From: Methylococcus geothermalis
GTDB lineage: Bacteria > Pseudomonadota > Gammaproteobacteria > Methylococcales > Methylococcaceae
DNA: 64,000 bases
Direction of reading: 5' to 3'
NCBI RefSeq assembly: GCF_012769535.1
Contig: NZ_CP046565.1
Coordinates: forward strand, 2,742,501-2,806,500
This document shows positions 43,065 to 58,377 of this stretch, piece after piece. Under the pieces are notes generated by a model that was not told the origin of the DNA, did not search any database, and saw nothing but the letters and a program-made list of their open reading frames with translations. Numbering within the stretch: position 1 is the stretch's first letter; every line of letters begins with the position of its first letter. The translations under genes were made by a program, and so were the position numbers.

Positions 43065-44071
43065 CGCTTTTCCTCATGGCCGCCGAATGCGAAGCGCATC
43101 GCGGACAGGATCTTGCGGGCGAACTCGTCCTCGCCCTGGGAAGAAAAGCGCTGGTACAGCGCCGCGCTGAGCACCGGCGCAGGGGTACCCTGGTCGATGG
43201 CTGTCGCGACCGTCCAGCGGCCCTCGCCGGAATCGGACACGCGGCCGCTGAAGCGCGCCAGGTCGGGATCGCGGCCCAGGACCTCGGCGGTGAGGTCGAG
43301 CAGCCACGAGGACACCACGCTGCCGCGCCGCCACAATTCGGCGATGTCGGCGATCGGCAGGTCATAGCGGTAATGCTCGGGGTGACGGAGCGGCGCGGTT
43401 TCGGCATCCGAGGCTTTGCCGGCCTTGCCGATGTTGGCGCGGCTGAGAATGTTGAACCCTTCGGAGTAGGCCGCCATCAGGCCATACTCGATGCCGTTGT
43501 GAACCATCTTGACGAAATGCCCGGCGCCGGCAGGCCCGCAATGGAGATAGCCCTGTTCGGCGGTGCTGCGGCCGTCCTTGCGGCTGGCGGTCCCGGCGAT
43601 TTCACCCTTGCCCGGCGCCAAGGCCTGGAAGATGGGACCCAGATGCGCCACGGACGCCGGTTCGCCGCCTATCATCAGGCAATAGCCTCGCTCCAACCCC
43701 CAGACGCCGCCGCTGGTCCCCACGTCCACGTAGTGCAGCCCGCGCTCGGCCAGACGTTCCGCACGCCGGATGTCATCGACGTAATGGGAATTGCCGCCGT
43801 CGATCAGGATGTCCCCGGCTTCCAGCACGCCGGCGAGCTGCTCCGCCATGCGATCCACCACGACGGCCGGCAGCATCAGCCAAACCGGCCGCGGCGGGGT
43901 CAACGCCGCCACGAATTCTTCAAGCGAGGATGCGCCGGTCGCGCCTTCCGCCGCCAAGGCCTCGACCGCCGCCTGGTCGAGATCGAACACCACGCACTCA
44001 TGGCCGGCGCGCAGCAGCCGCCGGACCATGTTCGCCCCCATTCGGCCCAAACCGATCATTCCCAATCGCAT
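43061..44071 (-). CDS. gnd: 6-phosphogluconate dehydrogenase, short (GndA/YqeC-type) form
   Basis: The enzyme oxidatively decarboxylates 6-phosphogluconate to ribulose-5-phosphate, the formaldehyde acceptor of the ribulose monophosphate cycle. At 336 residues it belongs to the short class rather than the 470-residue E. coli class. It has the N-terminal dinucleotide-binding [16 protein letters not shown], the substrate signature [31 protein letters not shown] with the catalytic lysine, and a compact C-terminal domain. Short forms are often NAD-dependent. It is first in the gnd-zwf-phosphoesterase run. Confidence 0.95.
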
Positions 44072-44185
44072 CTCAAACCTCCCGTTGAATGTCCGCGGTC
44101 AGCCTGCCTGCATCTGCACGCGCTCGACGACCAAAGCCTATCGCCGGAATATGAAACTTTGGGTCCCTTCGACCGCGTAGGCGAG

Positions 44186-45691
44186 CTAGGGCGATTCTTG
44201 CGACGGCTCCGGGCCTGGCTCGACCTCGTCCAGGATCGCTGGAACCGGTTCGGCCACAGACGCGATTTCCAGCGGTGAAACCGTCTCGACCGGCCCCACT
44301 GTTTCCGACCTGCCCGACGGATTCGTGTACAAATCGTTCAGCGACTGGATCGATTCCTTGCAGCGCTGACGGATCGCGGACAACTGAATCTCGCAGCGCC
44401 GGCTCCAGCCCATCAGGCCCGGCTTGCGGAAAAACGGCCAAGGCACGGCATTCGCCCGGAAACCGCGAACCATGTCCCAGCGGATGTTGAGCGCCTTCTG
44501 GCGTTTTTTGAGGGTCCGCACGCCGAACGCCGCAAAAATCTTGCTCAGCACGACATGGACCCGCGACCATAGCAATATCAGCCCCGCCAGCACGCCCGAT
44601 CCCGCCATCACCAAGAGGTTCGGCTCCAGCGGCACGAATTCCACCATGCCGTAGCCGGCGGCCCCCAGCACCGGCAGGAAGGTCGCGCAGTCGGTCCGGA
44701 TCAGGCGCTTGCGGTAGGTCTTGAAGACCTTCTCGATTTCCGGCAATGCCACGTCCTGGAACTCCTCGACCAGACGTTCCAGGGTACCGAGGATGCGGTA
44801 AGAACGCTCAATTTCGAGCTGCTGGATGCGTGCGTTGATCTCCGCCCAGTCGCGGTCGCGGCGCTGGAGATAGCGCTGGCGCAGGGTCTCGTCGGCAATG
44901 GGCACGGAGACGTCGGGCGAGAAGATCGTGTAGAACCGGCCGGTGACCAGTCCCGATTCCGCCAGAGCCCGGTGCCAGGCCGCCACCACCTCCTCCGGAT
45001 TGTCCTCCCGCGCCGTCGTGTCCATCTGGTTGAGGATGAACAGGAACTTGTTGGAGTCGTGGCGCTTGATGGTTTCGGTCACCAGATAGCGCAAGGTGTC
45101 CTTCATCGCACCGGGTTCGGGATGGCGGGCGTCGAAAAACACCAGCACGAGGTCCGAGATGTCGATGATGTGCTTGGTGATCGCCAGGATGGTGTCGCGC
45201 TGCGGATCGGCGTCGAATCCGGGCGAGTCGATAATGATCTTGCCCTTGAGGAAGGGGCTGCCGCAGGTCTTAAGCTGCAGGTAGGCGTTGATGCGGTCGC
45301 CCTCGCCCTGCAGCACCTGGTCGATTTCCTTGCTGATCTGGAAGAAAGGGAAGCGGGGATCGGCATCCAGGGCGATGCCCGGCAGTGTCCGGGATTCCGT
45401 ATCGTCGGAATAGCTCAGGACCGTGAACTTGTCGTCCACGGCCTGATTGCCGGTGCGCTGGATCTTGGTTTGCAGCAAGTGGTTTATGAAGGTTGACTTG
45501 CCGGCGGAAAACGTACCCAACACCGAAATCACCGGCCACCAGGATATCTGGCCGGCGCTGGCGTATTCCGGGTCGATCAGGCCCAGTTCGCGGGCGATGC
45601 TGTCCAATTCCTCGAAACTCCGCGCCGCGCCCAGCAGCACCGGATTTTCCTGGGTGAGATGCCTTTCGAGATTTTCGGAGTAGTTGGTCAT
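44186..45691 (-). CDS. Bacterial dynamin-like GTPase
   Basis: The 501-residue protein has a dynamin-type GTPase domain: P-loop GTFSAGKST at 59-67, a switch/G3 DSPGFD and G4 NQMD. A helical region follows. A pair of adjacent hydrophobic segments (about 318-350, CATFLPVLGAAGYGMVEFV and LLVMAGSGVLAGLILLW) may insert into the inner membrane. The C-terminal tail is acidic and Pro/Glu-rich. Bacterial dynamin-like proteins remodel or repair membranes, often as paired genes. This one is single, so it may act as a homo-oligomer. A role linked to intracytoplasmic membranes is speculation. Confidence 0.82.
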   Translation of the reverse strand: MTNYSENLERHLTQENPVLLGAARSFEELDSIARELGLIDPEYASAGQISWWPVISVLGTFSAGKSTFINHLLQTKIQRTGNQAVDDKFTVLSYSDDTESRTLPGIALDADPRFPFFQISKEIDQVLQGEGDRINAYLQLKTCGSPFLKGKIIIDSPGFDADPQRDTILAITKHIIDISDLVLVFFDARHPEPGAMKDTLRYLVTETIKRHDSNKFLFILNQMDTTAREDNPEEVVAAWHRALAESGLVTGRFYTIFSPDVSVPIADETLRQRYLQRRDRDWAEINARIQQLEIERSYRILGTLERLVEEFQDVALPEIEKVFKTYRKRLIRTDCATFLPVLGAAGYGMVEFVPLEPNLLVMAGSGVLAGLILLWSRVHVVLSKIFAAFGVRTLKKRQKALNIRWDMVRGFRANAVPWPFFRKPGLMGWSRRCEIQLSAIRQRCKESIQSLNDLYTNPSGRSETVGPVETVSPLEIASVAEPVPAILDEVEPGPEPSQESP

Positions 45692-45870
45692 GGCTTCCTG
45701 TTTGCGGAACCGGCTTGCACGGTGCCGATAGTTCGAGACCGCGACACTTTACGTGTTCCGGGCCCGCAAGTCGACGCCAAGCCTTGTCCAATGACACATG
45801 AGCCTGAACGAGGGTGCGTATTTCCAGCGTGAGATGAGCCTGAAGGGGCGTAGGTTGGGATCAGGCAGAC

Positions 45871-46085
45871 ATGATCGTGACCTTACCGACCCCAAACCTT
45901 CGAACCCTCGCCCAGGTGCGGGCCTTCGTGGCCGGTGCCGAGGCGGTTTCCTTTTGACCGATCGGGAAAGCGCCTACGCCTGGATGGCCGATGTGCTCGC
46001 CCGCTTTCGCTATCCGCATGCTGCCGCCCCGACAAAGGCGTGCTACGCCTACCTGGCCAAGGTGTCGGGACTGTCGCGGCGATAG
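45871..46085 (+). pseudogene. Decayed transposase (integrase-core insertion sequence), N-terminal fragment
   Basis: The frame from the ATG at 45871 (MIVTLPTPNLRTLAQVRAFVAGAEAVSF) meets a TGA after 28 codons. The homology pattern resumes in another frame (DRESAYAWMADVLARF, AYLAKVSGLSRR) and ends at a stop at 46083-46085. The order 'TLxQVRAFxxG... DRxSAYxx... YLxKVxGLSR' is the N-terminus of a common family of rve-type transposases. The helix-turn-helix and DDE catalytic parts are gone. It is thus a frameshifted and truncated relic. Confidence 0.75.
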
Positions 46086-46215
46086 CCCAAGCCGCCCCGC
46101 CGCCTGGGCAACTTTCATCCGCTTGGCGCCACCTCTCGCACCACTTCCAGGCGATCCAATTCCTTCCCGCTCGTCGTCACCATCCTCTCGGTCATCTCGC
46201 CCCCTCCAAAACCCA

Positions 46216-46261
46216 AAAGGGGACATCTCTATCTTGCCGAAAGGGGACATTACAACTTTGC
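46216..46261 (+). repeat. Two direct repeat units at the end of the decayed insertion sequence
   Basis: Two 22-base units, 46216-46237 and 46240-46261, share the pattern AAAGGGGACAT followed by an 11-base tail ending TTGC. Repeated GGACAT...TTGC units are typical of the terminal region of rve-type insertion sequences, where the transposase binds. This probably marks the right end of the relic whose coding part is at 45871-46085. The stretch 45692-45870 to the left holds no gene that I can support. Confidence 0.6.
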
Positions 46262-46351
46262 TCTTACACTGGATTGGAAAATACTGTCAACGATCCCTCA
46301 CCCGGATAAAATGAGCGCCTCGGCTCGGGGCCGAAGACAGGGAGAACCAGC

Positions 46352-47797
46352 GTGAACGACATTGCAACTGCACCCGTAACCCGGACGTCGACCGGCCGAG
46401 TGCTGGTCGGCGTGCTGGCGATGGCGGCAACCGCTCTGCTTGCCGTGGAACTGCGCGCCCGCCTCTTCCCCTTCGGCATGGTGACGCATCCGGCGAATGG
46501 CGCCTCCCTGGCCGATCCGCGCCAGGGCATCACTGTGGAACCGCTCGGCGTGGGCACCCGGATCGCGGCTGTGGAACTGCGGGAAGACGGGGGGGCGATA
46601 GTGGCGGCTGCCCAAGGGCTGGACCGTTTCGAGCTCGACAGGCCCTTGGCTTTCGGTAAGCACTACACCTTGACCGCGACGGTGGAGCGTTCCTGGTCCG
46701 ACCAGCGGCAGACCGAAGTGCTGGAATTTTCGACCGTGGGCATCCCCACACTGGAGGGGCCGGCGGATCGCAGCCTGGCGCCGGACGCATCGGTGACGCT
46801 CCGGTTTGATCAGCCGGTGGGCAAACTCGAACCCGTCGGCGAGCTGAACCTTGCCGTTCAACCGGACGAGACCCGCACCGCCTTCCGGCTTTCCGCCGCC
46901 GACTACGCCCAAGGCCAAACCTACCCGACGCAGATTCGCTGGGAAACGACCACCGGCGTGCCGCTGCCACCGTTCGAGCTGCGCATCTCGACCCCGCCGC
47001 CGGTGTCGGCGGAAGTCAACCTGCGCGGCGCGGACAATCTCGGCACGGCGATGCCTTTGCAGATCGCCTTCAGCGAGCCTTTGGCCGAACGCGACGACGC
47101 GGGCCGGCAGGTACGGATCCAGACGCAGGACGGAACCGACGTCGCCGGACGATGGGGCTGGATCGGCAAGACCCGCCTGCAATTCACGCCGCGCAACGGC
47201 TGGCCGCCCTCCAGCGTGATACGGGTCAGCGCAGAACCCGGCGCATTCCGCAGCACCCAGGGAGGCTTTCTCGAACCCCCGCTGGATTTGAGCTTCTCCA
47301 CCGGAACCGACCGGAAAATCTTCGTCTACCTCGATACCCAGACCATGACGGCGGTGGAAAACGGCCAGACCGTGCGTACCTTCAAGGTCAGCACCGGCAA
47401 ACCGAAGACGCCCACGGTCACCGGCTCGTTCTACATCTACGCCCGCTTCCCCACAAAGACCATGAAAAGCAGGGCCAAGAAAGGGGAAAAGGGCCATTAC
47501 ATCGTGGAGAACGTCCCTTACGCGCAGTATTTCCATGCCGACTACGCATTTCACGGCGCCTGGTGGCACAACGGCTTCGGGCGTCCCGCCAGCCACGGCT
47601 GCGTCAACATGTCGACGCAGCGGCACAACGCCCGCTGGCCTCAGGCGCCGGAGGATGCCGGCTGGCTGTATCAATGGGCCTCGCTGGGCGTACCGGTGAC
47701 GGTGCTGCACTCGCCGGCGCCGTCTGCCTCGACGCGGATCGCCCTGGACGAGCAGCGCCGGGAACAACCCGGCCTCAAATCATCCCCCGCTCCCTGA
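46352..47797 (+). CDS. L,D-transpeptidase (YkuD) with N-terminal Ig-like domains
   Basis: A 481-residue membrane-anchored cell-wall enzyme. A single hydrophobic helix (VLVGVLAMAATALLAVELRA, about 17-36) is followed by two or three Ig-like/SbsA-type beta domains (to about 320), then a YkuD domain. The catalytic block has FHGAWWHNGFGRPASHGCVNMS, with the nucleophile Cys417 and its histidines. These enzymes make 3-3 peptidoglycan cross-links or attach lipoproteins to peptidoglycan. GTG start at 46352 after GGAGAA. Its 3' end overlaps the convergent sdmB gene by 23 bases. Confidence 0.92.
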   Translation: MNDIATAPVTRTSTGRVLVGVLAMAATALLAVELRARLFPFGMVTHPANGASLADPRQGITVEPLGVGTRIAAVELREDGGAIVAAAQGLDRFELDRPLAFGKHYTLTATVERSWSDQRQTEVLEFSTVGIPTLEGPADRSLAPDASVTLRFDQPVGKLEPVGELNLAVQPDETRTAFRLSAADYAQGQTYPTQIRWETTTGVPLPPFELRISTPPPVSAEVNLRGADNLGTAMPLQIAFSEPLAERDDAGRQVRIQTQDGTDVAGRWGWIGKTRLQFTPRNGWPPSSVIRVSAEPGAFRSTQGGFLEPPLDLSFSTGTDRKIFVYLDTQTMTAVENGQTVRTFKVSTGKPKTPTVTGSFYIYARFPTKTMKSRAKKGEKGHYIVENVPYAQYFHADYAFHGAWWHNGFGRPASHGCVNMSTQRHNARWPQAPEDAGWLYQWASLGVPVTVLHSPAPSASTRIALDEQRREQPGLKSSPAP

Positions 47798-48761
47798 ACC
47801 AAGCCACCGCGTCGGCGAAAGCCTCGCGAGTGGAAGTCGGTATCAAGCCCAGTTCGCGCCGGATGCGGGAGGAGTCGCCGCGCTTGCCCGAGTTGAGCAG
47901 GCGGATCGAGTGGTAGTTGAAACGTGGGGCCTTGTGCGGGAAGAAACGCCGCTCCAGCGGATCCTTCAACAGCGCGATGCCCTGCATGAGGCGGGGCGGC
48001 ACGGCAAGCTTCGGGCGCGGCCGTCCGGTCAATTCCTCCAGCCACCGCAGGATTTCTCCGATGCTGCGGTACTCGCCGGTGACGAGATAGCGCTCGCCGC
48101 GGATGCCCTTGTCCATGGCCAGCAACTCCGCGGCGACCACATCGCGCATGGGCACGAAGTCGAAGGCGCCGGGGACGAAGGCCTTCATCCGGCCTTGGGC
48201 AAAATCGAGTATGGTGCGGCCGATCAGGCTGGGACGGAAGTCCCACGGGCCGACGATGGCGGCCGGATTGACGATGGTCACGTCCAAGCCGCGCACGGCT
48301 TCAAGAAGCACATCGTGTTCCGATACCGCCTTGGTCCGTTCGTAGTCGGTGCCGAGCTCGAACGGACTCACCGTCCAGCCTTCGTTCGAAGCGCCCTCGG
48401 GATTGATGCCGACGGCACCGAACGAGCTGGTGTGCACCACCCGCCGGACGCCGGCCCGCCTCGCCTCCTGCATGAGCATCCGGGTGCCGATGACGTTGAC
48501 GTCGAACAGCTCCTGGCGATCGCCGTTGCGGATGCTGACGAAAGCGGCGGTATGGTACAGCCGTTCCACGCCCTCCAGCGCTTCCCGGATCGAGCGGCGG
48601 TCGCGCAGATCGCCACAGGCCCGCTCGACGTCCAATCCCTCGAGCGCCGCGGTATCGCTTTGCGTCCTGACGAAGGCCCGGACCTTCTCGCCGCGGGCGA
48701 GCAATGCCCGCACCAGGTTGGCGCCCAGATGGCCGGTGGCGCCGGTGACTAGCGTGGTCAC
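47775..48761 (-). CDS. sdmB: NAD(P)-dependent sterol dehydrogenase of C-4 demethylation (SdmB-type)
   Basis: A 328-residue extended short-chain dehydrogenase of the 3-beta-hydroxysteroid dehydrogenase type. The cofactor site is TGATGHLG at 6-13 and the active-site pair Tyr140/Lys144 (DYERTK) is preceded by the serine-containing VVHTSSFG. In Methylococcus capsulatus the pair SdmA/SdmB has been shown to remove one C-4 methyl of sterols. SdmB is thought to dehydrogenate and decarboxylate the 4-carboxy sterol made by SdmA. The GTG start overlaps the sdmA stop (GTGA), so translation is coupled. Assignment rests on fold plus adjacency; close SDR relatives exist. Confidence 0.85.
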   Translation of the reverse strand: MTTLVTGATGHLGANLVRALLARGEKVRAFVRTQSDTAALEGLDVERACGDLRDRRSIREALEGVERLYHTAAFVSIRNGDRQELFDVNVIGTRMLMQEARRAGVRRVVHTSSFGAVGINPEGASNEGWTVSPFELGTDYERTKAVSEHDVLLEAVRGLDVTIVNPAAIVGPWDFRPSLIGRTILDFAQGRMKAFVPGAFDFVPMRDVVAAELLAMDKGIRGERYLVTGEYRSIGEILRWLEELTGRPRPKLAVPPRLMQGIALLKDPLERRFFPHKAPRFNYHSIRLLNSGKRGDSSRIRRELGLIPTSTREAFADAVAWFRERGMI

Positions 48762-49867
48762 GCAGGGTCCGTCGCCGGCTTGGGGTCATCCATCGGTGAA
48801 GACTGCTGATAGGCTTTCCATTTCTCCAGCGATAGCTTCTGGAAGGAAGGGATGGCCGGATTGAGTTCGATCTGGGGCGCGTCGGGGTAACGCTCGAAAC
48901 CGTCCTGTTCCAGTTCGAGCGCCCATTTGTCCTCGCCCAGCAGGGGTTCGATATACCACTTGTTGGTGAACCACAGGATAGGTTTGCGCAGGAATTCGGG
49001 CATCTTCCAATTCAGGATCGGGATGTGGATCGGCCCGAACAGGAAAACGAAGAAACAGCGTGTCGTGCACTCATCCTCCGGCAGCATGAACAGCCAGTGG
49101 ATGTATTTGCCCCCGATATCGGAACCCTGATAAGGGTATTGGTACCAGATTTCTATCTCATTGAGGTCGCGTGCCCCGCCTTCCATGAAGAGCTTGGCGA
49201 CCGGGCTCCCGTCGAAGCGGGTGTCGTAGTAGACCCGCACGCTGTCGCCATCCTGCTTCCACTCGCGCAACGTCGGCTGCAAGAACGGACGCTTATGCCG
49301 GTGCAGGTATTCGTGGTTGAAGTCGCAGACATTCTCCACGATCATCGAAAAATGCGACCGGATGGTCACGTCGATCGGGAAGAAGGGCCAGGGCTTGTCC
49401 CCTTCGAGTTGCGGAATCGTCGGCAGCGGCACGCTGTCCGCCAGCGCCGGGTCGCCCGGAAACAGCCAGATCAGTCCCCACTGCGCCTTGACCGGATACG
49501 TCCGGATGCGGATTTTGGGCAGCTTGGATCGGCCTTTGCCGAGTTCGTGGTGAATGTCGGTGCATCTGCCGCAGCCGTCGAATTTCCAGCCGTGATAAGT
49601 GCACACCAGATTTCCGTCCTCGACGAAGCCTTGCGACAGCGCCAGTTGCCGATGCGGGCAGCGGTCTTCCACGGCATGCAGTTTGCCGCCGGCATCGCGG
49701 AACAGCGCGATGTCCTGGCTCCAGAACCGCACCCGCTTGACCTGCCGCGGCTTGAGTTTGCCGTCGACCTCGACCACATACCAGTAATTGCCGCTGAGGC
49801 CGATGGTACGGACTTGGCGGCGGCGGGGCAGCTCGGGGATAGCCTGATTTTCGGTCGATCGGTTCAT
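48758..49867 (-). CDS. sdmA: Rieske oxygenase of sterol C-4 demethylation (SdmA-type)
   Basis: The 369-residue protein has an N-terminal Rieske [2Fe-2S] domain with ligands Cys70/His72 (CPH) and Cys89/His92 (CTYH). A catalytic domain follows with the mononuclear iron motif NVCDFNHEYLHRH (Asp182, His185 and His189 or His191). This layout is that of Rieske monooxygenases such as steroid 9-alpha-hydroxylases and SdmA, which oxidises a sterol C-4 methyl group. The C-terminal part is rich in aromatic residues and may touch the membrane. The ATG at 49867 is used; the frame upstream overlaps bstC. The electron-supplying reductase is not in the window. Confidence 0.87.
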   Translation of the reverse strand: MNRSTENQAIPELPRRRQVRTIGLSGNYWYVVEVDGKLKPRQVKRVRFWSQDIALFRDAGGKLHAVEDRCPHRQLALSQGFVEDGNLVCTYHGWKFDGCGRCTDIHHELGKGRSKLPKIRIRTYPVKAQWGLIWLFPGDPALADSVPLPTIPQLEGDKPWPFFPIDVTIRSHFSMIVENVCDFNHEYLHRHKRPFLQPTLREWKQDGDSVRVYYDTRFDGSPVAKLFMEGGARDLNEIEIWYQYPYQGSDIGGKYIHWLFMLPEDECTTRCFFVFLFGPIHIPILNWKMPEFLRKPILWFTNKWYIEPLLGEDKWALELEQDGFERYPDAPQIELNPAIPSFQKLSLEKWKAYQQSSPMDDPKPATDPA

Positions 49868-49898
49868 TTTCGGCGTCGTGGAAAGGCGAAGGAGAAGT

Positions 49899-50687
49899 CT
49901 ACCGGACAGGCTCGCCGATCTCCTCGCGCAGATCGGCAAACTCCTGCTTCCAGGGTTTTTTGTTGTATCCCCAGTGTCCGGACTCCAGCAGTTTCATCCC
50001 GGCAGCCATCTCTTCCTTGACGCGCCTGCCCTCGCCGTTCACTTCCCACAGCGCCTGGGCGTAGAAAAGATGGTTGAGCGGATGCGCCGGATGTTTGTCC
50101 ACGGCCCGCTGGAGCAGATCGAGCGCCTTGTCGCCGTCGCCGATCCCGGCCGGCCAGGGCGGGGCCTTGAGGTACAGCATGCCCAAGAGCCGCAGCGGGC
50201 CGCCATCGTCGACATCGGGGCTCAACCTCACCGCCGCCTCGAACTCGTCTTCCAGCCGGTGCAGATTGGCCATTGCCACCGTCATGTCGTCGCGGACCGC
50301 CAGCCCCAGATTTGCGGCCAGATAATAATGGACGGCGCCGTCATCTTTTCCGCCTTGCGCCAGCGCGGTTTCGGCGAGCTTCACGCCTTCCCAGGCAAAG
50401 CGCTCGCGCTCTGCCGGGTCGGAATCCCGTTCGGCAAGATGCAGGCAAAGCCGGCTGCCCAGGGAACTCCGGCGCAGAACGGGATCGTCCGACCCGCGCA
50501 CGAAACCCAAAGCGCATTCCAGCTCCGGCGTTGCGCTCGACGGCCCGAGGGCGTCCTGGTTGGCGATCAAGGCTGCTGCGGTCTGCCGGGGGCAACCGGC
50601 AGGCTGGCCGGCCGGTACGGCATCCCTGTGCAAGCCGCCGCAACCGGCCAGGACTGCCGACAACAGGCCGGACGCGAACAGGCGCAC
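49899..50687 (-). CDS. bstC: TPR-type sterol-binding lipoprotein (BstC-type)
   Basis: From the GTG at 50687 the product has 262 residues with a short lipoprotein signal MRLFASGLLSAVLAGC (Cys16). A helical, TPR-like domain follows (DGAVHYYLAANLGLAVRDD, GPLRLLGMLYLKAPPW, NHLFYAQALWEVNGEG). This fits BstC, the outer-membrane-associated member of the bacterial sterol transport set BstABC described in Methylococcus. A TTG at 50696 is a possible alternative start; the longer open frame upstream is the overlapped bstB region. It follows bstB by 13 bases and precedes sdmA by 31 bases. Confidence 0.82.
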   Translation of the reverse strand: MRLFASGLLSAVLAGCGGLHRDAVPAGQPAGCPRQTAAALIANQDALGPSSATPELECALGFVRGSDDPVLRRSSLGSRLCLHLAERDSDPAERERFAWEGVKLAETALAQGGKDDGAVHYYLAANLGLAVRDDMTVAMANLHRLEDEFEAAVRLSPDVDDGGPLRLLGMLYLKAPPWPAGIGDGDKALDLLQRAVDKHPAHPLNHLFYAQALWEVNGEGRRVKEEMAAGMKLLESGHWGYNKKPWKQEFADLREEIGEPVR

Positions 50688-50700
50688 GGTAGGCAAGGCT

Positions 50701-51546
50701 TCAGTTCCCCGCCAGCCAGAGCTTGGCCATGGGGTCGAATATCGCCGGATCCACCGCCACGAAGGACTGGATGCCGAACAGATCACATAGCTTTTTGCCG
50801 TCGGCGTCGCCGCACATGGTTTCCAGCGCCTTGCCAAATCGCGCCCGGTCCTGTGCCGTGGCGAGCTTGCCATTCGCCACCACGCCCATCAGCGGAATCT
50901 CCGCCGAGGTGAAGACCGCCTCCACCGGATTGGCGAGCTGCAACGCGCTCAGGCCCGCGAATTGTTGTTCGTTGAGCATGACCGCGTCCAGCTCCCCTTT
51001 GTCCAGCGAACGCAGGGCGCGGATCGCCTGCCGCGAGGGCTGGAGGGCGAAATCCTTTTCCGGGTCGAATTTACCGGCAAACACGATCCTGCCGATGAAG
51101 GCCGGCTCATCCAGCACGGTGCCGCCCAGCGATCTGCCCTTGAGTTCGTCCATGCCATGGAACCTCCCCTTCTGCACCACGACCCGGTAACGCTCGCTGG
51201 TCCGCCCGTCGATCCGGGGCTGAACCACCGGCACCAGATCGTATGGGCCGCGCATGTCCAGATACAGCCCCAGCGATGTGATCGCGAAAGCGGGCTTTTT
51301 CTCTGCCATGAGTTTTCCGCAATCGGCCGCCTTCGCAGTAAACACGCTGCTGAAACTCTTCTGGGGCCACTGCCCTACCCGTTCCACCACCCGGAGCATG
51401 GCGTCCATGGCCTGACCGGCGTCGCGCTCGTTCACGGGTCCCCCCGGATAACAGACGACCACCGGGGCGGGACCGCCGGCCGAAGCCGGGACGAGGGGAG
51501 CCAGCAGGACCGCCAACAGCAAAGCGCGCGAAATCTTGTATGTCAT
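50701..51546 (-). CDS. bstB: Periplasmic sterol-binding protein (BstB-type, PhnD-like fold)
   Basis: The 281-residue protein has a cleavable signal peptide (MTYKISRALLLAVLLAPLVPASA). It then has a two-lobed periplasmic binding protein fold of the phosphate/phosphonate type, recognisable from VVVCYPGGP, the hinge region LKGRSLGGTVLDEPAF and LDAVMLNEQQFAGL. No ABC transporter genes are adjacent; the partner is the RND protein encoded upstream. This is the BstB arrangement, in which the binding protein carries sterols through the periplasm. The ATG at 51546 overlaps the bstA stop by four bases. Confidence 0.85.
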   Translation of the reverse strand: MTYKISRALLLAVLLAPLVPASAGGPAPVVVCYPGGPVNERDAGQAMDAMLRVVERVGQWPQKSFSSVFTAKAADCGKLMAEKKPAFAITSLGLYLDMRGPYDLVPVVQPRIDGRTSERYRVVVQKGRFHGMDELKGRSLGGTVLDEPAFIGRIVFAGKFDPEKDFALQPSRQAIRALRSLDKGELDAVMLNEQQFAGLSALQLANPVEAVFTSAEIPLMGVVANGKLATAQDRARFGKALETMCGDADGKKLCDLFGIQSFVAVDPAIFDPMAKLWLAGN

Positions 51547-54266
51547 GGTTTCCTTCTTGAATCGAGAAGCTGCCCGATGGCCGGCGCAACCCACAGCGTC
51601 GCGGACAGACAGCAGAGCAGGCCGATGGTGATGTTGACGCCCAGGGTGGACACGCCGCGGTAGTTCGCCAGGGTGATCGCCCCGAGACCGGCCAGCTCGG
51701 TGCCGGCGGCAAGTCCGATCACCCGTCCGGCCACCCGGTTGAGCTGCCTCAGTGAATGGTCCTCCAGCTCGAACCAGCGCTGGCTGAACCACACCCCGTA
51801 ATCCACCGCCAAGGCGATCACCAGCGGCAGCGCGATGATATTGGCATAGTTGTAACGGATACCGCCCAGCGCCATCAGCCCCAACATCCAGCCGCCGCCG
51901 ATCAGCAAGGGCATGGATGCGAGCACAAAACCGCGCCAGCTGCGCAGGACGAGCGCCAGCCACAGCAGGCAGACCGCTACCGCCGCGCGGGTTCCGTGGG
52001 TGAAGCTCTCCACCACGGACTTGGAAAATACCTGATGGGTCGCCGGGAAACCGGTCGCTTCGGGCGATACCGCATAAATCTCCTGCATCAGCCTATCGAG
52101 GTTGGCGGGATCATACACAGTTTTTGCGGGAAACGCGTACACCGCGACCGTGCCGTCGGCAGCGAAAAACCGGTCCCGCAAGGCCGGCGGGAGTTGCTCC
52201 GGAGTCAGCGGACGAGCCCTCCGCCAGTCTTCCAGCAGCGCTCCGCCCCGCGCGGCAGCCGAAAGCAGCACGCGGAAAAACCGTTCGCTGCGCTGCCTGG
52301 CCCGCACGGGATCGGCGTCGATGCCGGCCCGGACCGCATCCAGCCGCTCCCGTACTTGTTCCAGCGCCGCCACCAATCCGGAATGGCCCGCGGAAAAAGC
52401 CAGTTCCTGCGACTGGTCGATGAAGTCGCCCGCCCGCTCCAGAACCGCACGCACCCGACCGAAGGTTCGATCCGGCAGGCCGATGCCGGCAAGCCCGGCC
52501 GCCTTCGCCGCATAGGCGCCGGCGGCGGCAAGCTCGCCGACGCGCCGGGCATTTCGAGCCCTCGCGTCGGCGTCCGGCGGAAACAGGTCCGCGAGAGACT
52601 GCACTTTCGCCACGCTGCCCAGCTTGGCCGCGTCCGCCGCGATACGCCGGGCCTCGGCCATATCCCTGGCGGTAAAGATGACCACCTCCGCCTGGTAGTC
52701 ACTTTCCGCGACCATTCGGCTCTGGTAATGCGCTGCCTCGGAATCTTTCGGCAACAGCGAAAGTACGTCGTAATCGAAGGGCAGCTCGTAGCCCCAGACG
52801 ATGCCAAAGACCGCCGCGGCCAGCGATCCCGCGACCAGGGTGGCGGCAATGCTTCCCCGGTACGGCCACCGGCCCGGCTTGATCTCCCGAGCCGAAGCCG
52901 CGACCGGCAAGGGCTGCAACCTGGGCGGCAGCAAAGCGTACAGCGCCGGCTGGACCATCCAAGTGCTGACCAGAATCAGCAGTACGCCCTTGGCCGCCAC
53001 CAGCCCCAGCTCGGAGAAACCAGGGAAGTCCACCGTGGCCAACGCGCCGAAAATCATCACCGAGGCCCCGCCGGCGGTGAATACCGCTTGGAACGAAGCG
53101 CCGATCCCCGCGCCGATCGCTTCGGCCAGCGGCTTGCCGCTATGCCGCTCCTCGGCGATGCGTGCCGACGTGAAGATGCCGTAATCCGCACCGAGGCCGA
53201 ACAGGATGGCGATGAAACTGGCGGTGATGAGAGTCAGATGGCCGACGGTCACCAGCACCAAGCCCAAGCTCCACAGCACCCCGAGCCCCATGGGAACGAA
53301 GATGACCAGCGCCCAGCGCCAGCTCCGCACCACCGCCAGGATCAGGAGGACGATCAGGCCGGCCGACGAGCCGACGACCAGAGCGATGTCGTGACGGATG
53401 CTGACGTGCTCTTCGTACTCGATGGCCGGCAGCCCGGTCAGCCCCACCTTGGGCGCGGCCCGGCCGGCTGCCCGAGTCTTCGCCGCCTGCGTTGCCGCCA
53501 CGGCTCTCACCTTTTCGATGAACGGCCCGGTGGTGGTGAAATCCTCCGAAGCGCTCGCCGGGTGCACGAACAGGAAGTACATACGCCCGTCGCGCGAGAC
53601 GAAATAGCCTTCATTGGCGACCTCGCTTCCGCCCTGGCCGGCCAGCAGCCGTCCCCAGTCGAGCGCCGCCGGCACCTCATCCGCGGCGAGCCAGCGGCGC
53701 CACTCGTCGAGCAGCACCGCCAGCAGTTTCAGCCCGGTCTCGGCGGTGGGGATGTCGATGCCCGCATCAGGCGCGGCGGGCGCCTCGTCGAGGCGCTCGC
53801 GAAGCCGGTCCAAAGCCGCATCGATCTGCGAGGCATCGCTGGGGATGGGCGCTCCCGCCAACCTGTCGAGTGCGCCCGCCAGCGCTTTGAGCCGATCTTC
53901 GGGTACCGCCAGATAGGCGTGCTCCAGCAGAAAATCCAGATCGACCCGGGCCGTCGCCTGGGCGATTTCGGGCTCGGCAGCGAGAGCCGCCGCCAGTTCG
54001 TCGGCGAATGTCTTCAGCTCATCGGACGGCGCCCCTTCCAAGACGACGATCAGATCGGAAGCGGCGCCGAATTTTTTCAGAAAACCGTCGAAACGCGCGG
54101 CGACCGCGTTGTCGTGCGGCAGCAGCGCTTGACGGGACGTGTAGACCGGCAGTTGGGAAACCGCCCAGAGAGAGAGAACCGAGAACGCGACGGCAACGGC
54201 CAGAATCCACCACGGCCGGCGGGCGAAACGTTCGGCCACCGTAGCGGCCCATTGAGGAATATTCAC
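51543..54266 (-). CDS. bstA: RND-family sterol transporter (BstA-type, HpnN-related)
   Basis: A 907-residue inner-membrane protein with the RND/MMPL duplication. One helix near the N-terminus (WWILAVAVAFSVLSLWAV) is followed by a large periplasmic loop, then five clustered helices (about 293-425). A second half has another periplasmic loop and a final helix group (about 760-900). The first cluster resembles sterol-sensing-domain proteins. Relatives include HpnN (hopanoid transport) and MmpL. As BstA it would extract sterols from the inner membrane and hand them to BstB. GTG start at 54266 without a clear ribosome binding site. First gene of the bstABC-sdmAB operon. Confidence 0.88.
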   Translation of the reverse strand: MNIPQWAATVAERFARRPWWILAVAVAFSVLSLWAVSQLPVYTSRQALLPHDNAVAARFDGFLKKFGAASDLIVVLEGAPSDELKTFADELAAALAAEPEIAQATARVDLDFLLEHAYLAVPEDRLKALAGALDRLAGAPIPSDASQIDAALDRLRERLDEAPAAPDAGIDIPTAETGLKLLAVLLDEWRRWLAADEVPAALDWGRLLAGQGGSEVANEGYFVSRDGRMYFLFVHPASASEDFTTTGPFIEKVRAVAATQAAKTRAAGRAAPKVGLTGLPAIEYEEHVSIRHDIALVVGSSAGLIVLLILAVVRSWRWALVIFVPMGLGVLWSLGLVLVTVGHLTLITASFIAILFGLGADYGIFTSARIAEERHSGKPLAEAIGAGIGASFQAVFTAGGASVMIFGALATVDFPGFSELGLVAAKGVLLILVSTWMVQPALYALLPPRLQPLPVAASAREIKPGRWPYRGSIAATLVAGSLAAAVFGIVWGYELPFDYDVLSLLPKDSEAAHYQSRMVAESDYQAEVVIFTARDMAEARRIAADAAKLGSVAKVQSLADLFPPDADARARNARRVGELAAAGAYAAKAAGLAGIGLPDRTFGRVRAVLERAGDFIDQSQELAFSAGHSGLVAALEQVRERLDAVRAGIDADPVRARQRSERFFRVLLSAAARGGALLEDWRRARPLTPEQLPPALRDRFFAADGTVAVYAFPAKTVYDPANLDRLMQEIYAVSPEATGFPATHQVFSKSVVESFTHGTRAAVAVCLLWLALVLRSWRGFVLASMPLLIGGGWMLGLMALGGIRYNYANIIALPLVIALAVDYGVWFSQRWFELEDHSLRQLNRVAGRVIGLAAGTELAGLGAITLANYRGVSTLGVNITIGLLCCLSATLWVAPAIGQLLDSRRKP

Positions 54267-54333
54267 TCGAAACGATCGGGTTCAAGGCTTGCGGCACGGC
54301 GTCCGACTCGAAGCAGTGGTGGAGTGCGAACGC

Positions 54334-54360
54334 AAAAAAAGCACTCGGCGGCAGTGCTTT
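54334..54360 (-). terminator. Intrinsic terminator upstream of bstA
   Basis: On the minus strand an eight-base stem AAAGCACT/AGTGCTTT with a seven-base GC-rich loop runs into a seven-T tract. It lies between the sterol desaturase gene and bstA, 67 bases before the bstA start. It either ends the desaturase transcript or, if the operon promoter lies upstream of it, acts as an attenuator. Confidence 0.82.
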
Positions 54361-54430
54361 CGAGGCATAGTCTAATTGTGCGAGTGCCCTAAAACAAAAC
54401 CTTAGCCTTGGCCCCAAGCGTCACGGCTTT

Positions 54431-54468
54431 TCGGGCCATTTTCCGACAAACGCCGGAAAATGGCCCGA
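54431..54468. repeat. Perfect 15-base inverted repeat behind the sterol desaturase gene
   Basis: Arms 54431-54445 and 54454-54468 (TCGGGCCATTTTCCG and its complement) enclose an eight-base loop, beginning 12 bases after the desaturase stop. There is no T-tract on the minus strand, so it is not a classical intrinsic terminator. It may stabilise the 3' end of the desaturase mRNA or bind a protein. Confidence 0.6.
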
Positions 54469-54479
54469 TTCCCCGACCG

Positions 54480-55472
54480 TTACGACGCCTGCCGTACCGT
54501 GCCGGCATGGCGATTGCGGCCACCAGCCATCCGTTCCACGATTTCGCGCTCCGCGGCCAGCCAGTCGAACATCTCGAAACCTGGGACGAACCCGCGCTTT
54601 TCAGCCCGGAAATAGGCGGCTTCAGCTATCATCGGCTCCAAGGGCCGTGGAGCCGGCGCATAGGCGTAGGTGAAACCGAATTTCAACGATTCGACAAAAC
54701 CCAGGGCATCCACCTCGCGCAATCCGATCTGCGCCGGACGGGCCTCCATCAGCGTACCGAACAGCCGGTCCCAGATGGAAAACAGCGCGCCATAATTGCG
54801 ATCGTGCTCGCCGCGCAACGCCGAGTGATGCACACGGTGCAGGCTGGGCACGATGAGGACTCGGCCAAGTTTCCGCTCGCCGCGGAACGAAATATCGGCA
54901 TGATGGAACAGCACGGCCAGCGTGATCAGCGCCTCGCCGAACAACACCTGGGCAGCATGCACGCCGGTGACGACGATGAAGGCAGCCTTGACCAGAACCG
55001 TCAGCAGGACTTCCACGAAATGCAACCGGAAACCGGTGGTCACGTTCATCGAGCGGTCGCTATGGTGCACCTTGTGAAACAGCCACAGCCAAGGCAGCCG
55101 ATGGCTGGCCCAGTGCCACAAATACAGCACGAGATCGAGCAGGAGCAGTCCCAGCAAACCGCGAAGCCACGGGTTGCTCACGCCGGCCAGGAGTCCACCG
55201 CCGGCGTGGCGCTCCGCCAAAACCAGCAGGGAGGACACGGACAGCGCGGACATCAGCAGGTCGTTGAACAAGAACAGGCATAGATTCGTGCGGTACGACC
55301 TTCGTACCACGGACCTGCCGCGCACGCCCCGGCCGCGGCGGATCTCGAACGCCATCAAGCAGGCGAACGTCAGCAGGATCGCCGCCGACAACACGTCCTG
55401 GACCGTCACATCGGGCCACAGACGGTCGATGCCGGGAAATTTCAGATGCCATGTCAGATTGTTCAGGATCAT
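54480..55472 (-). CDS. Sterol desaturase/fatty acid hydroxylase superfamily protein
   Basis: A 330-residue integral membrane di-iron oxygenase with five or so hydrophobic segments. It has the three histidine boxes HWASH (HxxxH), HKVHH (HxxHH) and HRVHH (HxxHH), the hallmark of the C-5 sterol desaturase/C-4 methyl oxidase superfamily. It lies directly upstream of the sterol transport and demethylation operon on the same strand, so a sterol substrate is attractive. Many bacterial members act on other lipids. The terminator at 54334-54360 shows it can be expressed separately. Confidence 0.85.
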   Translation of the reverse strand: MILNNLTWHLKFPGIDRLWPDVTVQDVLSAAILLTFACLMAFEIRRGRGVRGRSVVRRSYRTNLCLFLFNDLLMSALSVSSLLVLAERHAGGGLLAGVSNPWLRGLLGLLLLDLVLYLWHWASHRLPWLWLFHKVHHSDRSMNVTTGFRLHFVEVLLTVLVKAAFIVVTGVHAAQVLFGEALITLAVLFHHADISFRGERKLGRVLIVPSLHRVHHSALRGEHDRNYGALFSIWDRLFGTLMEARPAQIGLREVDALGFVESLKFGFTYAYAPAPRPLEPMIAEAAYFRAEKRGFVPGFEMFDWLAAEREIVERMAGGRNRHAGTVRQAS

Positions 55473-55690
55473 GATCTTTCCTCCGCACGAATGCTGTCTG
55501 GAGCAGGCCTTGGCTGCGCACGGCGGGTCCCGATCAAGGGATCGGTGAGAGTTATCGGCGCCGCCCTGGCGTATCCAAGGGCGCTTTCAGCCTATCCCCT
55601 GAAGGCGGCGCCGACAACAAAGCACGGAGTAACAAACTGTTGCGCGAAAAGAACGACGGCGCACCGAAAGCCGGCAAGGCCGAGCGGCCG

Positions 55691-57055
55691 TCAGCCCCGT
55701 TTGCCGCCACCCTGGCTGCGCAATCCGTCGCCCCCCCGCCGCTGTTGCGGCTTCGGCGAATGCCGGGCGGCGCTACGAGTCCCCAAACTCGCCCGTGCCT
55801 TCGGCTGGCTTCCGGGAGACTGCCGTCCACCCGCATCGCGCGCCTCTTGCGGGCGCCGTGGCCGATCGTCCCTGCGCTCGATCTGCGGACGGGGCGGCGG
55901 ATTGAAGCCGTCCGCGATCCCGCGCTGGATCGGCCGCTTGATCAAACGCTCGATCCCGCTCAGCAGCTTCAGCTCATCCTTCGCCACCAGCGACACCGCC
56001 GAACCGGCGTTGCCGGCACGCCCCGTGCGTCCGATGCGATGGACATAATCCTCGGGCACATTCGGCAACTCGAAATTCACCACGTGCGGCAACTGGTCGA
56101 TATCCAGGCCGCGCGCGGCGATGTCGGTCGCTACCAGGACCGGCACCCGGCCGTCCTTGAAGTCTGCCAGCGCCTTGGTGCGCGCCGCCTGGCTCTTGTT
56201 GCCATGGATCGCCGCGGCCGGAATGCCGTCTTCGGCCAGTTTCTCCGCCAGCCGGTTCGCACCGTGCTTGGTCCGGGTGAACACCAGCACCTGACGCCAG
56301 TCGTGCCGGCGAATCAAATGGGTCAGCAAATCGCGCTTGTGCTCCTGGGCCACCAGGTGGACGGTCTGGTCCACCAGATCGGAAGCCGCGTTGCGGCGCG
56401 CCACTTCGACGTAGCCGGGATTGTTCAGCAGGCCGTCGGCGAGCGCCCGGATTTCGTCCGAGAAGGTGGCCGAAAACAACATGTTCTGCCGCCGTTTCGG
56501 CAGCAGCCCCAAAATCCGTCGGATGTCGCGAATGAACCCCATGTCCAGCATGCGGTCCGCCTCGTCGAGCACGAAGATTTCCACACCGGAAAGATCGACG
56601 GTCTTCTGCCCACAGTGATCGAGCAGCCGGCCCGGTGTGGCAACGAGGATGTCGACCCCGTGTTCCAGGGCACGAATCTGCGGGTTGAGTCCCACCCCAC
56701 CGAACATGACCGTGGATTTCAGCGGAACGTGTTTGCCGTAGGTTTCGACCGATGCCTGAACCTGCGCCGCCAGTTCGCGGGTCGGCGTCAAAATGAGGCA
56801 GCGCGGGCGGCGGCTGCGGCGAGGAGCCTGGTTTTCGAGTAAGCGGTGCAGAATCGGCAAGGTGAAACCGGCGGTCTTGCCGGTTCCGGTCTGGGCCGCG
56901 GCGAGCAGATCGCCACCGGCGAGCAGCAACGGTATGGCCTGAGCCTGGATGGGCGTGGGATTGACGTAGCCCGCTTCGGAAACCGCGCGCAAAAGGGGTT
57001 GAGCCAGCCCCAAATCGGCGAACGCCGGGCCGGCAGAATTCAGTTCTGATGACAT
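55691..57055 (-). CDS. rhlE: DEAD-box RNA helicase, RhlE-type
   Basis: A 454-residue ATP-dependent RNA helicase starting [17 protein letters not shown]. Motifs: Q-motif region [21 protein letters not shown], Ia [10 protein letters not shown] (MFGGVG), Ib [18 protein letters not shown] (DEAD), [30 protein letters not shown] and [12 protein letters not shown]. The C-terminal 80 residues are basic and Arg/Gly/Pro-rich, typical of RNA-tethering tails. Such helicases act in ribosome assembly and mRNA decay, often at low temperature. Divergent from an RRM protein gene. Confidence 0.93.
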
Positions 57056-57341
57056 ATTAAGGTAAGTGTCCTGCGACGGCCTGCCGCATCGCAAGCAAGG
57101 CGGCACCAATCGAGGCAGACGAATCAATGTATTGGGAGGGAATGACGAGCAGACGGCACGGTGATTGGTTGAACGTGCCACGGATGATTATAGGGGGATC
57201 CGGCGTCGATGTCACCCAGCAAATGCCCTCCCTCCCGTTCGCCTGCGAACATCCCCCGTACAGCGCGGGAAACGATGAATATTTCTCTTTTTCCCCCTGT
57301 CGAATGGAGCATTTTTGTTTTATTGTTGACCGCGGGTTTTC
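57056..57341. promoter_or_regulatory. Divergent region between the DEAD-box helicase and the RRM protein gene
   Basis: These 286 bases must contain promoters and leaders for both divergent RNA-binding protein genes. The part nearest the RRM gene (about 57272-57345) is AT- and pyrimidine-rich (TTTCTCTTTTTCCCCC, ATTTTTGTTTTATTGTTGAC). TTGTTGAC at about 57322-57329 could be a -35-like element. I cannot place a convincing -10 partner. Long leaders would be in keeping with cold-inducible regulation, but this is conjecture. Confidence 0.4.
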
Positions 57342-57668
57342 ATGAACCTCGACGGGGGGTCTTTCGTGGGCAGCAAGCTATATGTAGGCAACTTGAACTA
57401 TCGTGTCGGCGACGCCGATCTGGAACGGACCTTCGCGGCGTATGGCACCGTGAAATCGGCACAGGTGGTGATGGATCGCGCCACCGGCCGGTCCAGGGGA
57501 TTCGGGTTCGTGGAAATGGGCAGCGACCAGGAGGCGCAAGCCGCCATCGCCGGGCTCAACGGCAAGGATATGGATGGACGCAATCTGATGGTCAATGAAG
57601 CTCGTCCGCCGGAAAGGCGCGGCGGCGGTGGCGACGTCAAGCGGGGCGGCGGCGGTAGGCGGTACTGA
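57342..57668 (+). CDS. Small RNA-binding protein with one RRM domain
   Basis: A 108-residue protein with a single RNA recognition motif. RNP2 is KLYVGNL and RNP1 is RGFGFVEM (RSRGFGFVEM). A short Arg/Gly-rich tail (RRGGGGDVKRGGGGRRY) follows. This class of RRM-Gly proteins is found in cyanobacteria and many proteobacteria and is often cold-induced. The ATG at 57342 is annotated. The GTG at 57366 (MGSKLYVGNLNY) has a G-rich ribosome-binding-like stretch seven bases upstream and may be the real start. Confidence 0.9.
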   Translation: MNLDGGSFVGSKLYVGNLNYRVGDADLERTFAAYGTVKSAQVVMDRATGRSRGFGFVEMGSDQEAQAAIAGLNGKDMDGRNLMVNEARPPERRGGGGDVKRGGGGRRY

Positions 57669-57747
57669 CCGGGAACGGCACCATTGCAGGCTCGGAATCG
57701 GGTACCCTGCCGGCCATCCGTCACGCGGAAGGCCGGCATGCCCCGCA

Positions 57748-58377
57748 TCACGAAGCCTGCCGCAGCCGATACTTGGTGATACGCTCGAGTAGAAGCGCCG
57801 CGTGATAGCAGGAATCCGTGGTTTTTTCCAGGATTCCCAGAATCTCGGTCCAGTCCGATTCGGCCAGGAGCGACAGGGTGCTGTAACGCCGGTGTGACTT
57901 CCGCCATGCGTGATACACCAGGTCCGCGCTCGCCTCCGACGCCTTGAGCTCCTCCCTGCATTGCTTGATGCTCGCGAGTTCGTTTCGCGGATAGTGGTCC
58001 ATTTCCGCCGACAACCGCCGGACCATCGAAAGGGTAATCGCGAGAAGATCGAGGGCGGCGGCTTCCGCCTGCTGCGGCGTGAAAATGTCGATCACCCGGG
58101 CGGTGTCGTTCAGGCCGTCCAGAATGTCGTCGACATGCCTGGCGAATTGCTGGATCAACAGCACCAGTTCGGAATAGGGCGCGATCTCCAATGCATCATA
58201 GGCTTCGCGCATCAGCGCATCGCCTTTTTCTTCGAGCTGCCGGATCAGGCCGATATGCGGTTCGGCGGCGTCGAGGTCGGCAAAAAGCCTTTCCAGAGCC
58301 CGACCGCATTCGAGGCTGCAGCTCAGATGATCCTGGAATATTTTCTTGAGTGAACGGTCGGCGTGATCGAAATTCAT
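57748..58377 (-). CDS. PhoU-like protein (DUF47 family)
   Basis: A 209-residue all-helical protein of the DUF47/TIGR00153 family, distantly related to PhoU. It has the typical metal-binding-helix pattern EEKGDALMREAYDAL and ILDGLNDTARVIDIF. Relatives usually precede a PiT phosphate transporter and modulate it. Here no transporter gene is adjacent, so it is an orphan copy or works with a transporter elsewhere. Confidence 0.88.
   Translation of the reverse strand: MNFDHADRSLKKIFQDHLSCSLECGRALERLFADLDAAEPHIGLIRQLEEKGDALMREAYDALEIAPYSELVLLIQQFARHVDDILDGLNDTARVIDIFTPQQAEAAALDLLAITLSMVRRLSAEMDHYPRNELASIKQCREELKASEASADLVYHAWRKSHRRYSTLSLLAESDWTEILGILEKTTDSCYHAALLLERITKYRLRQAS

Follow-up and report, generated by a model that had tools for sequence, protein, structure and literature searches.

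The bstABC–sdmAB locus of Methylococcus geothermalis

A 64,000-nucleotide stretch of the Methylococcus geothermalis genome (hereafter the window; 2742501–2806500 of a one-contig genome of 3,371,031 bases) carries five adjacent genes for sterol transport and sterol C-4 demethylation, all on the minus strand, at 54266–47775 of the window. These are bstA (51543–54266; GTG start, 907 amino acids), encoding an RND/MMPL inner-membrane sterol transporter; bstB (50701–51546; ATG start), encoding a periplasmic sterol-binding protein with a signal-peptide-like N-terminus; bstC (49899–50687; GTG start), encoding a TPR-type putative outer-membrane lipoprotein whose signal, read from the sequence, is an LAGC lipobox after a hydrophobic N-terminus; sdmA (48758–49867; ATG start), encoding a type I Rieske oxygenase, the 4beta-methylsterol monooxygenase; and sdmB (47775–48761; GTG start), encoding a type I 3beta-HSD-like SDR, the decarboxylating dehydrogenase/ketoreductase. 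bstA and bstB overlap by 4 bases (ATGA), as do sdmA and sdmB (GTGA), and the bstB–bstC and bstC–sdmA spacers measure 13 and 31 bases. This packing, which we re-derived from the sequence, agreed to the base with that given in an initial annotation of the window. The starts listed for the open reading frames of bstB, bstC and sdmA gave longer proteins than those adopted here, and the adopted bstB and bstC starts matched the published BstB and BstC of Methylococcus capsulatus; bstC has an alternative TTG start at 50696. The order bstA–bstB–bstC–sdmA–sdmB on one strand was found in all six Methylococcus genomes (the window's own included) among 201 genomes searched, with exact spacings that differed among the six, and chance adjacency of the five genes was ruled out by this shared arrangement.

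Profile searches placed all five proteins above the NCBIfam equivalog cut-offs for BstA, BstB, BstC, SdmA and SdmB, as the names first given to them had implied. BstA, which matches MMPL family PF03176, scored 1606.6 bits on NF045600 (cut-off 1400), BstB 475.7 bits on NF045601 (cut-off 350), BstC 433.7 bits on NF045602 (cut-off 350), SdmA, with Rieske domain PF00355, 695.4 bits on NF052579 (cut-off 600) and SdmB 671 bits on NF052578 (cut-off 600). The best solved chains for BstB and BstC were PDB 7t1m (E 1.5e-149) and 7t1s (E 3.7e-132), and the closest solved structures to BstA were those of HpnN (6wu0, 5khn). The C-x-H...C-x-YHGW and D-x-x-H-x-x-x-H residues of SdmA, which we take to be the iron ligands, were invariant among 15 aligned SdmA proteins, and TG-x-x-GHLG and Y-x-x-x-K of SdmB among 14 aligned SdmB proteins.

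BstA belongs to the same RND/MMPL family as the hopanoid transporter HpnN and scored 354.3 bits on the HpnN model TIGR03480, while SdmB scored 274 bits on the HpnA model; both matches would suit an RND, binding-protein and TPR set that handles hopanoids instead of sterols. However, the two scores lay under the cut-offs of those models (751.85 for HpnN), whereas the Bst and Sdm cut-offs were passed. In addition, two other HpnN genes over cut-off are present elsewhere in the same genome, one of them adjoining a squalene-hopene-type cyclase gene, and in published pull-downs sterols were favoured in a mixture that also held hopanoids. We rejected hopanoid transport on the profile scores and regard it as scarcely credible for this locus. 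A second HpnN-type RND gene of the genome (locus L273, C1:92000–102999) adjoins a sulfotransferase homologue, away from the sterol genes.

The genome also carries the remainder of a sterol pathway, the absence of which the initial annotation had considered as grounds against its reading. An OSC gene was found at C1:728723 (1095.8 bits), and a squalene epoxidase open reading frame (PF08491) starts about 70 bp downstream of it. A CYP51-type P450-ferredoxin homologue (62% identical), for which we assume the name CYP51, was found at C1:3045492. A homologue of 8,14-Bsr (68% identical), named via PMC13277303 by fold, place and distribution, was found at C1:613258 (9226–9861 of locus L244). In the comparison of genomes described below, a 200-amino-acid gene between CYP51 and OSC, without a Pfam or NCBIfam match, was considered as a new sterol enzyme, an idea that was dropped because the gene fits the NTF2-fold 8,14-sterol reductase published in May 2026, a match judged by description. 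Of the 76 genomes, among 201, with a homologue of this NTF2-like gene, 74 belong to the 78 taken as OSC-positive below.

The locus is already known, because the operon has been published for M. capsulatus, where bstABC–sdmAB is described as one putative operon for sterol demethylation and transport (Zhai 2024 eLife, PMC10942540). The two operons hold the same five gene families, and species-level sequence divergence was the only difference seen: BstB of the window shares 84.3% identity with the M. capsulatus protein in print, whose structure, like that of M. capsulatus BstC, has been solved. Within the sample, SdmA of the window is 90% identical to that of the Methylococcus genome G017. The present locus is a sister-species copy of the one system proposed for moving sterols across the bacterial envelope; comparison across its relatives is more useful than the locus itself.

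Distribution and arrangement of bst and sdm in Methylococcales

The 201 genomes were drawn evenly from the order Methylococcales and examined by profile searches. A genome was called OSC-positive, by a threshold chosen by hand, when it scored at least 440 bits on TIGR03463, whose curated cut-off of 851 is passed by 32 of the 201; among the rows assigned to squalene-hopene cyclase, the highest score on this model was 274 bits, and the OSC of G091 and G176 was partial. For SdmA the counting threshold was 283 bits (16 genomes exceed 600), for SdmB it was E <= 1e-75 (15 exceed 600), and for BstB it was the cut-off of its own model. Because BstB was counted only over cut-off, G107, which holds a contig-edge BstB fragment and BstC over cut-off, was counted as BstB-negative.

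BstB was found over cut-off in 43 of the 201 genomes, 42 of which were OSC-positive, and BstA, full or in pieces, stood alongside it in 42 of the 43. SdmA and SdmB were found in an identical set of 48 genomes, none of which held both of the Sdm types described below. The 78 OSC-positive genomes comprised 34 with Sdm and BstB, 8 with BstB only, 13 with Sdm only and 23 with neither; outside this set were G109 (Sdm without OSC, partial BstA) and G130 (BstB without OSC). Sdm was therefore missing from 8 of the 42 OSC- and BstB-positive genomes, although two of these (G097 and G101) are fragmented drafts whose lack is weak evidence, and BstB was missing from 13 of the 47 OSC- and Sdm-positive genomes. 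Of the 16 genomes that pass the curated cut-off for SdmA, 7 were without BstB. Two published statements thus fail in this sample of genomes: that Bst is present in all sdmAB methanotrophs and that it is always co-localised with osc, sdmA and sdmB. Sterol trimming and transport are often linked in these relatives, yet some species keep one without the other. The exception to the pairing of BstB with BstA was G055 (locus L148, 4628–5467), where bstB stood without bstA or bstC over cut-off; this genome is counted among the 34. In a draw of 398 genomes spanning the phylum, a BstB match at E <= 1e-15 was confined to the genome of the window.

Two SdmAB lineages were found to flank bst on opposite sides in different families. 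The type I pair lies 3' of bstC, as sdmA–sdmB, in all six Methylococcus genomes, and the type II pair lies 5' of bstA, as sdmB–sdmA, in 8 genomes of family f8. Other sterol clusters of the order, examples of which are given in Lee 2026 (PMC13277303; methanotroph sterol clusters with transport genes appear in its Fig. 1b legend), have the same bstA–bstB–bstC order, with an SdmA/SdmB pair adjoining in 8 of the genomes drawn here. The fullest of these other loci, L118, runs CYP51, 8,14-Bsr, OSC, squalene epoxidase, sdmB, sdmA, bstA, bstB, bstC, so that its Sdm pair stands on the opposite side of bst, in reversed order, from that of the window. Type II Sdm proteins, those of L118 included, are 39–46% identical to the window's and are presumably C-4 demethylases as well.

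This arrangement bears on the possibility that bst and sdm are neighbours by descent in the genus Methylococcus only, with no functional coupling. In other genera of the family the two sets are apart, on other contigs or far along one (G041, G067, G089, G029, G064, G033 and others), type I sdm being on another contig than bst in the first three of these. Coupling is favoured, on the other hand, by the different SdmAB lineage directly 5' of bstA in 8 genomes of another family and by the co-occurrence of Sdm and BstB beyond chance, phylogeny ignored, and we consider adjacency by descent alone to be quite improbable.

In the SdmA tree, types I and Ib together and type II formed distinct clades (100/100 and 100/98). 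Type II SdmA had grouped with cyanobacteria in a first quick tree (support 92, 101 rows). In a careful tree of 65 of the 101 rows, from which long branches and many outside rows were left out, all Methylococcales SdmA lay on one side of a branch at 56/91, a placement neither shown nor rejected, and we therefore do not claim separate outside origins of the Sdm types. A Methyloprofundus-type sdmA was also seen in a metagenome-assembled genome labelled Cytophagales (sister to the clade) and in one labelled Methylomonas (inside the clade; loci L160 and L163), which may reflect transfer, contamination or mislabelling.

The position occupied by type II sdm was without an intact sdmBA in six genomes (G127, G128, G141, G181, G051 and G190), where squalene epoxidase is directly 5' of bstA; these are six of the eight OSC- and BstB-positive genomes without Sdm. 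In G190 (three contigs; locus L125, 6236–6916), a decayed sdmB/sdmA remnant lies between squalene epoxidase and an intact bstA. The last codons of sdmB can still be read there, as can a start of sdmA that spans 143 codons and has tyrosine in place of the invariant histidine of the Rieske C-x-H. In this genome, sdm decayed while bst was kept. On a 40-row tree of BstABC, in which 11 of the 37 inner branches were open, at least eight changes are needed to account for the absence of Sdm, with the direction not given; three of the nine Sdm-negative rows (G097, G101 and G130) are drafts or short contigs. We found no prior report of Sdm/Bst decoupling, of two-sided SdmAB or of Methyloprofundus transport in our searches of open-licence literature listings.

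Gating and direction of sterol transport

Very probably, the locus is a member of the known bstABC–sdmAB operon family in which five proteins are made together but form two modules, with export not gated by methylation. In the proposed route, SdmA would oxidise one C-4 methyl of a cytosol-made 4,4-dimethyl sterol, and SdmB would decarboxylate the product and reset the C-3 hydroxyl to give a 4-monomethyl sterol. BstA would take sterol from the inner membrane, BstB, with a pocket that grips the hydroxyl end, would carry it through the periplasm, and BstC would receive it at the outer membrane. The operon would thereby supply all five proteins at once, irrespective of the methylation state of the exported sterol. 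For the strain of the window we infer one transcript, this route and direction of transport, and the absence of gating.

The initial annotation had gone further, suggesting that modification and export may form one step in which Bst exports only C-4-demethylated sterol. Its gene identities, judged by the NCBIfam cut-offs, its operon-like packing and its assignment to sterol demethylation and transport (PMC10942540) were borne out, whereas the obligate coupling was not. The tight packing with two 4-bp overlaps, the association of Sdm with BstB among OSC-positive genomes and the linkage of Sdm to bst on either side in two families are all compatible with such a gate. However, the BstA periplasmic domain, BstB and BstC of M. 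capsulatus have been reported to bind both 4-monomethyl and 4,4-dimethyl sterol, and Table 3 of Wei 2016 (PMC4919349) gives both 4,4-dimethyl and 4-methyl sterols for M. capsulatus Texas. For M. alcaliphilum, Wei 2016 lists only a 4,4-dimethyl sterol. SdmAB of M. capsulatus, which is reported to remove one C-4 methyl when expressed in Escherichia coli, is said in PMC13277303 to be non-essential in M. capsulatus, whereas deletion of bst and osc failed in that species. The genome counts argue in the same direction, both through the 8 of 42 without Sdm and the 13 of 47 without BstB, and through the six loci, the decayed one of G190 included, in which squalene epoxidase precedes bstA without an intact sdmBA. 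Finally, Y120 and N192 of BstB, which were docked to the sterol hydroxyl (PMC10942540), were invariant in 43 of 43 BstB proteins aligned over the order, nine of them from genomes without Sdm; a third docking residue, E118, was kept in 40 of the 43. Since Bst binds both sterols, SdmAB is dispensable and Y120/N192 are invariant, the data are most simply read as co-expression of two modules that are frequently found together, and an obligate gate appears highly improbable. Co-expression without a gate predicts that Bst carries 4,4-dimethyl sterol in species with bst and without sdm.

Three observations weigh against this reading of two ungated export modules. First, within the OSC-positive set Sdm and BstB co-occur more often than expected by chance (Fisher odds ratio 7.5, p 7e-5, with phylogeny ignored), and some functional coupling of Sdm and Bst, though not an obligate one, is therefore likely. 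Second, OSC lies 2.06 Mb from the operon along the contig as numbered (1.30 Mb if circular). Third, the BstB and BstC families are best known from import, and export by Bst rather than uptake is itself an inference in print.

The last of these points favours transport in the other direction or both ways, with Bst retrieving or taking up sterol located in the outer membrane. BstB belongs by Pfam membership to a phosphonate-binding importer family, and BstC has been placed in the TRAP T-component superfamily, thought to aid import (PMC10942540). Against uptake, 42 of the 43 BstB-positive genomes were OSC-positive, and BstA is an RND protein whose nearest characterised relative is HpnN. The RND family is known for export. 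Sterols are also described in print as products of the cytosol that are located in the outer membrane. Taken together, these data make uptake unlikely, and export by BstABC remains the preferred direction.

Methyloprofundus and the surroundings of the operon

Methyloprofundus (genus g24, mussel symbionts included) is a genus of predicted sterol makers without Bst. OSC was present in all seven sampled genomes, as was SdmAB of clade Ib, which groups with type I; none of the seven gave a BstB match. Four of them (G161, G098, G020 and G069) are labelled as Bathymodiolus methanotrophic symbiont or Methyloprofundus; for the remaining three, the name is taken from the genus code and the SdmA tree. 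Two HpnN-family RND genes were present in 6 of 7 genomes, and one such gene adjoins a squalene-hopene-type cyclase gene in 7 of 7. In a quick tree that drew long-branch warnings, the second RND formed a clade of its own (99). Its gene is close to OSC or sdm genes in G113 (locus L137, 3344–19738), G174, G161, G137 and locus L164, with TPR, sulfotransferase or glycosyltransferase genes around it (L137, L164, L139, L140, L144, L261 and L262). In G020 and G069 it occurs with the same TPR and sulfotransferase genes on contigs other than that of OSC, and G098 has TPR and glycosyltransferase genes by OSC and only the cyclase-side RND. In G174, the TPR protein gave a 41-bit match to the window's BstC and a sub-threshold TAtT match.

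We regard the second RND and the TPR protein as a lead, a candidate replacement sterol carrier. Weighing against replacement, matches to the BstC model as strong as that of G174 are widespread (152 of the 201 genomes at E <= 0.001), and in the window's genome the sulfotransferase homologue noted above stands by another HpnN, away from sterol genes. Bathymodiolus symbionts have been proposed in print to supply the mussel with sterol intermediates, and their sterol export route becomes a testable question.

We tentatively propose a wider history, which we consider plausible but somewhat short of probable: BstABC would be a free-standing sterol carrier indifferent to C-4 methylation, and two long-separated SdmAB lineages would have joined it separately, type I on its downstream side in Methylococcus and type II on its upstream side in f8, with the gene order reversed between the two. 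At least once, Sdm would have disappeared from beside a retained bst (G190), and in Methyloprofundus a sterol-linked HpnN-family RND with a BstC-like TPR protein would replace Bst.

Upstream of bstA, a leader (54267–54479, minus strand) contains an AT-rich block, TTTTGTTTT...TTAGACTATG, and a hairpin with a T run, GAAAGCACT...AGTGCTTTT, the latter at 54361–54337, between the conserved AT-rich block and the bstA start. Most of the leader is kept in each of the six Methylococcus genomes, G003 among them, in which some 3 kb separate the upstream gene from bstA. The hairpin may be a terminator, an attenuator or an mRNA-end stem; it is one of 12 terminator-like sites in 47700–54700, against 5.5 +/- 2.4 in shuffles. 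No strict sigma-70 promoter match was found in 47700–54700, no Rfam family scored above its gathering score in 44000–58000 of the window, and a plasmid collection held no near match to the locus.

The gene upstream of the leader (54480–55472 of the window), 213 bp 5' of bstA on the same strand, belongs to a fatty-acid hydroxylase family and has a DUF2934 tail. It adjoins bstA in 5 of 6 Methylococcus genomes, G003 being the one in which it lies about 3 kb off, and no homologue was found beside bst in the other loci examined. At the opposite end of the operon, the 3' end of sdmB overlaps a convergent L,D-transpeptidase gene by 23 bp (47775–47797 of the window), an overlap present in all six Methylococcus genomes.

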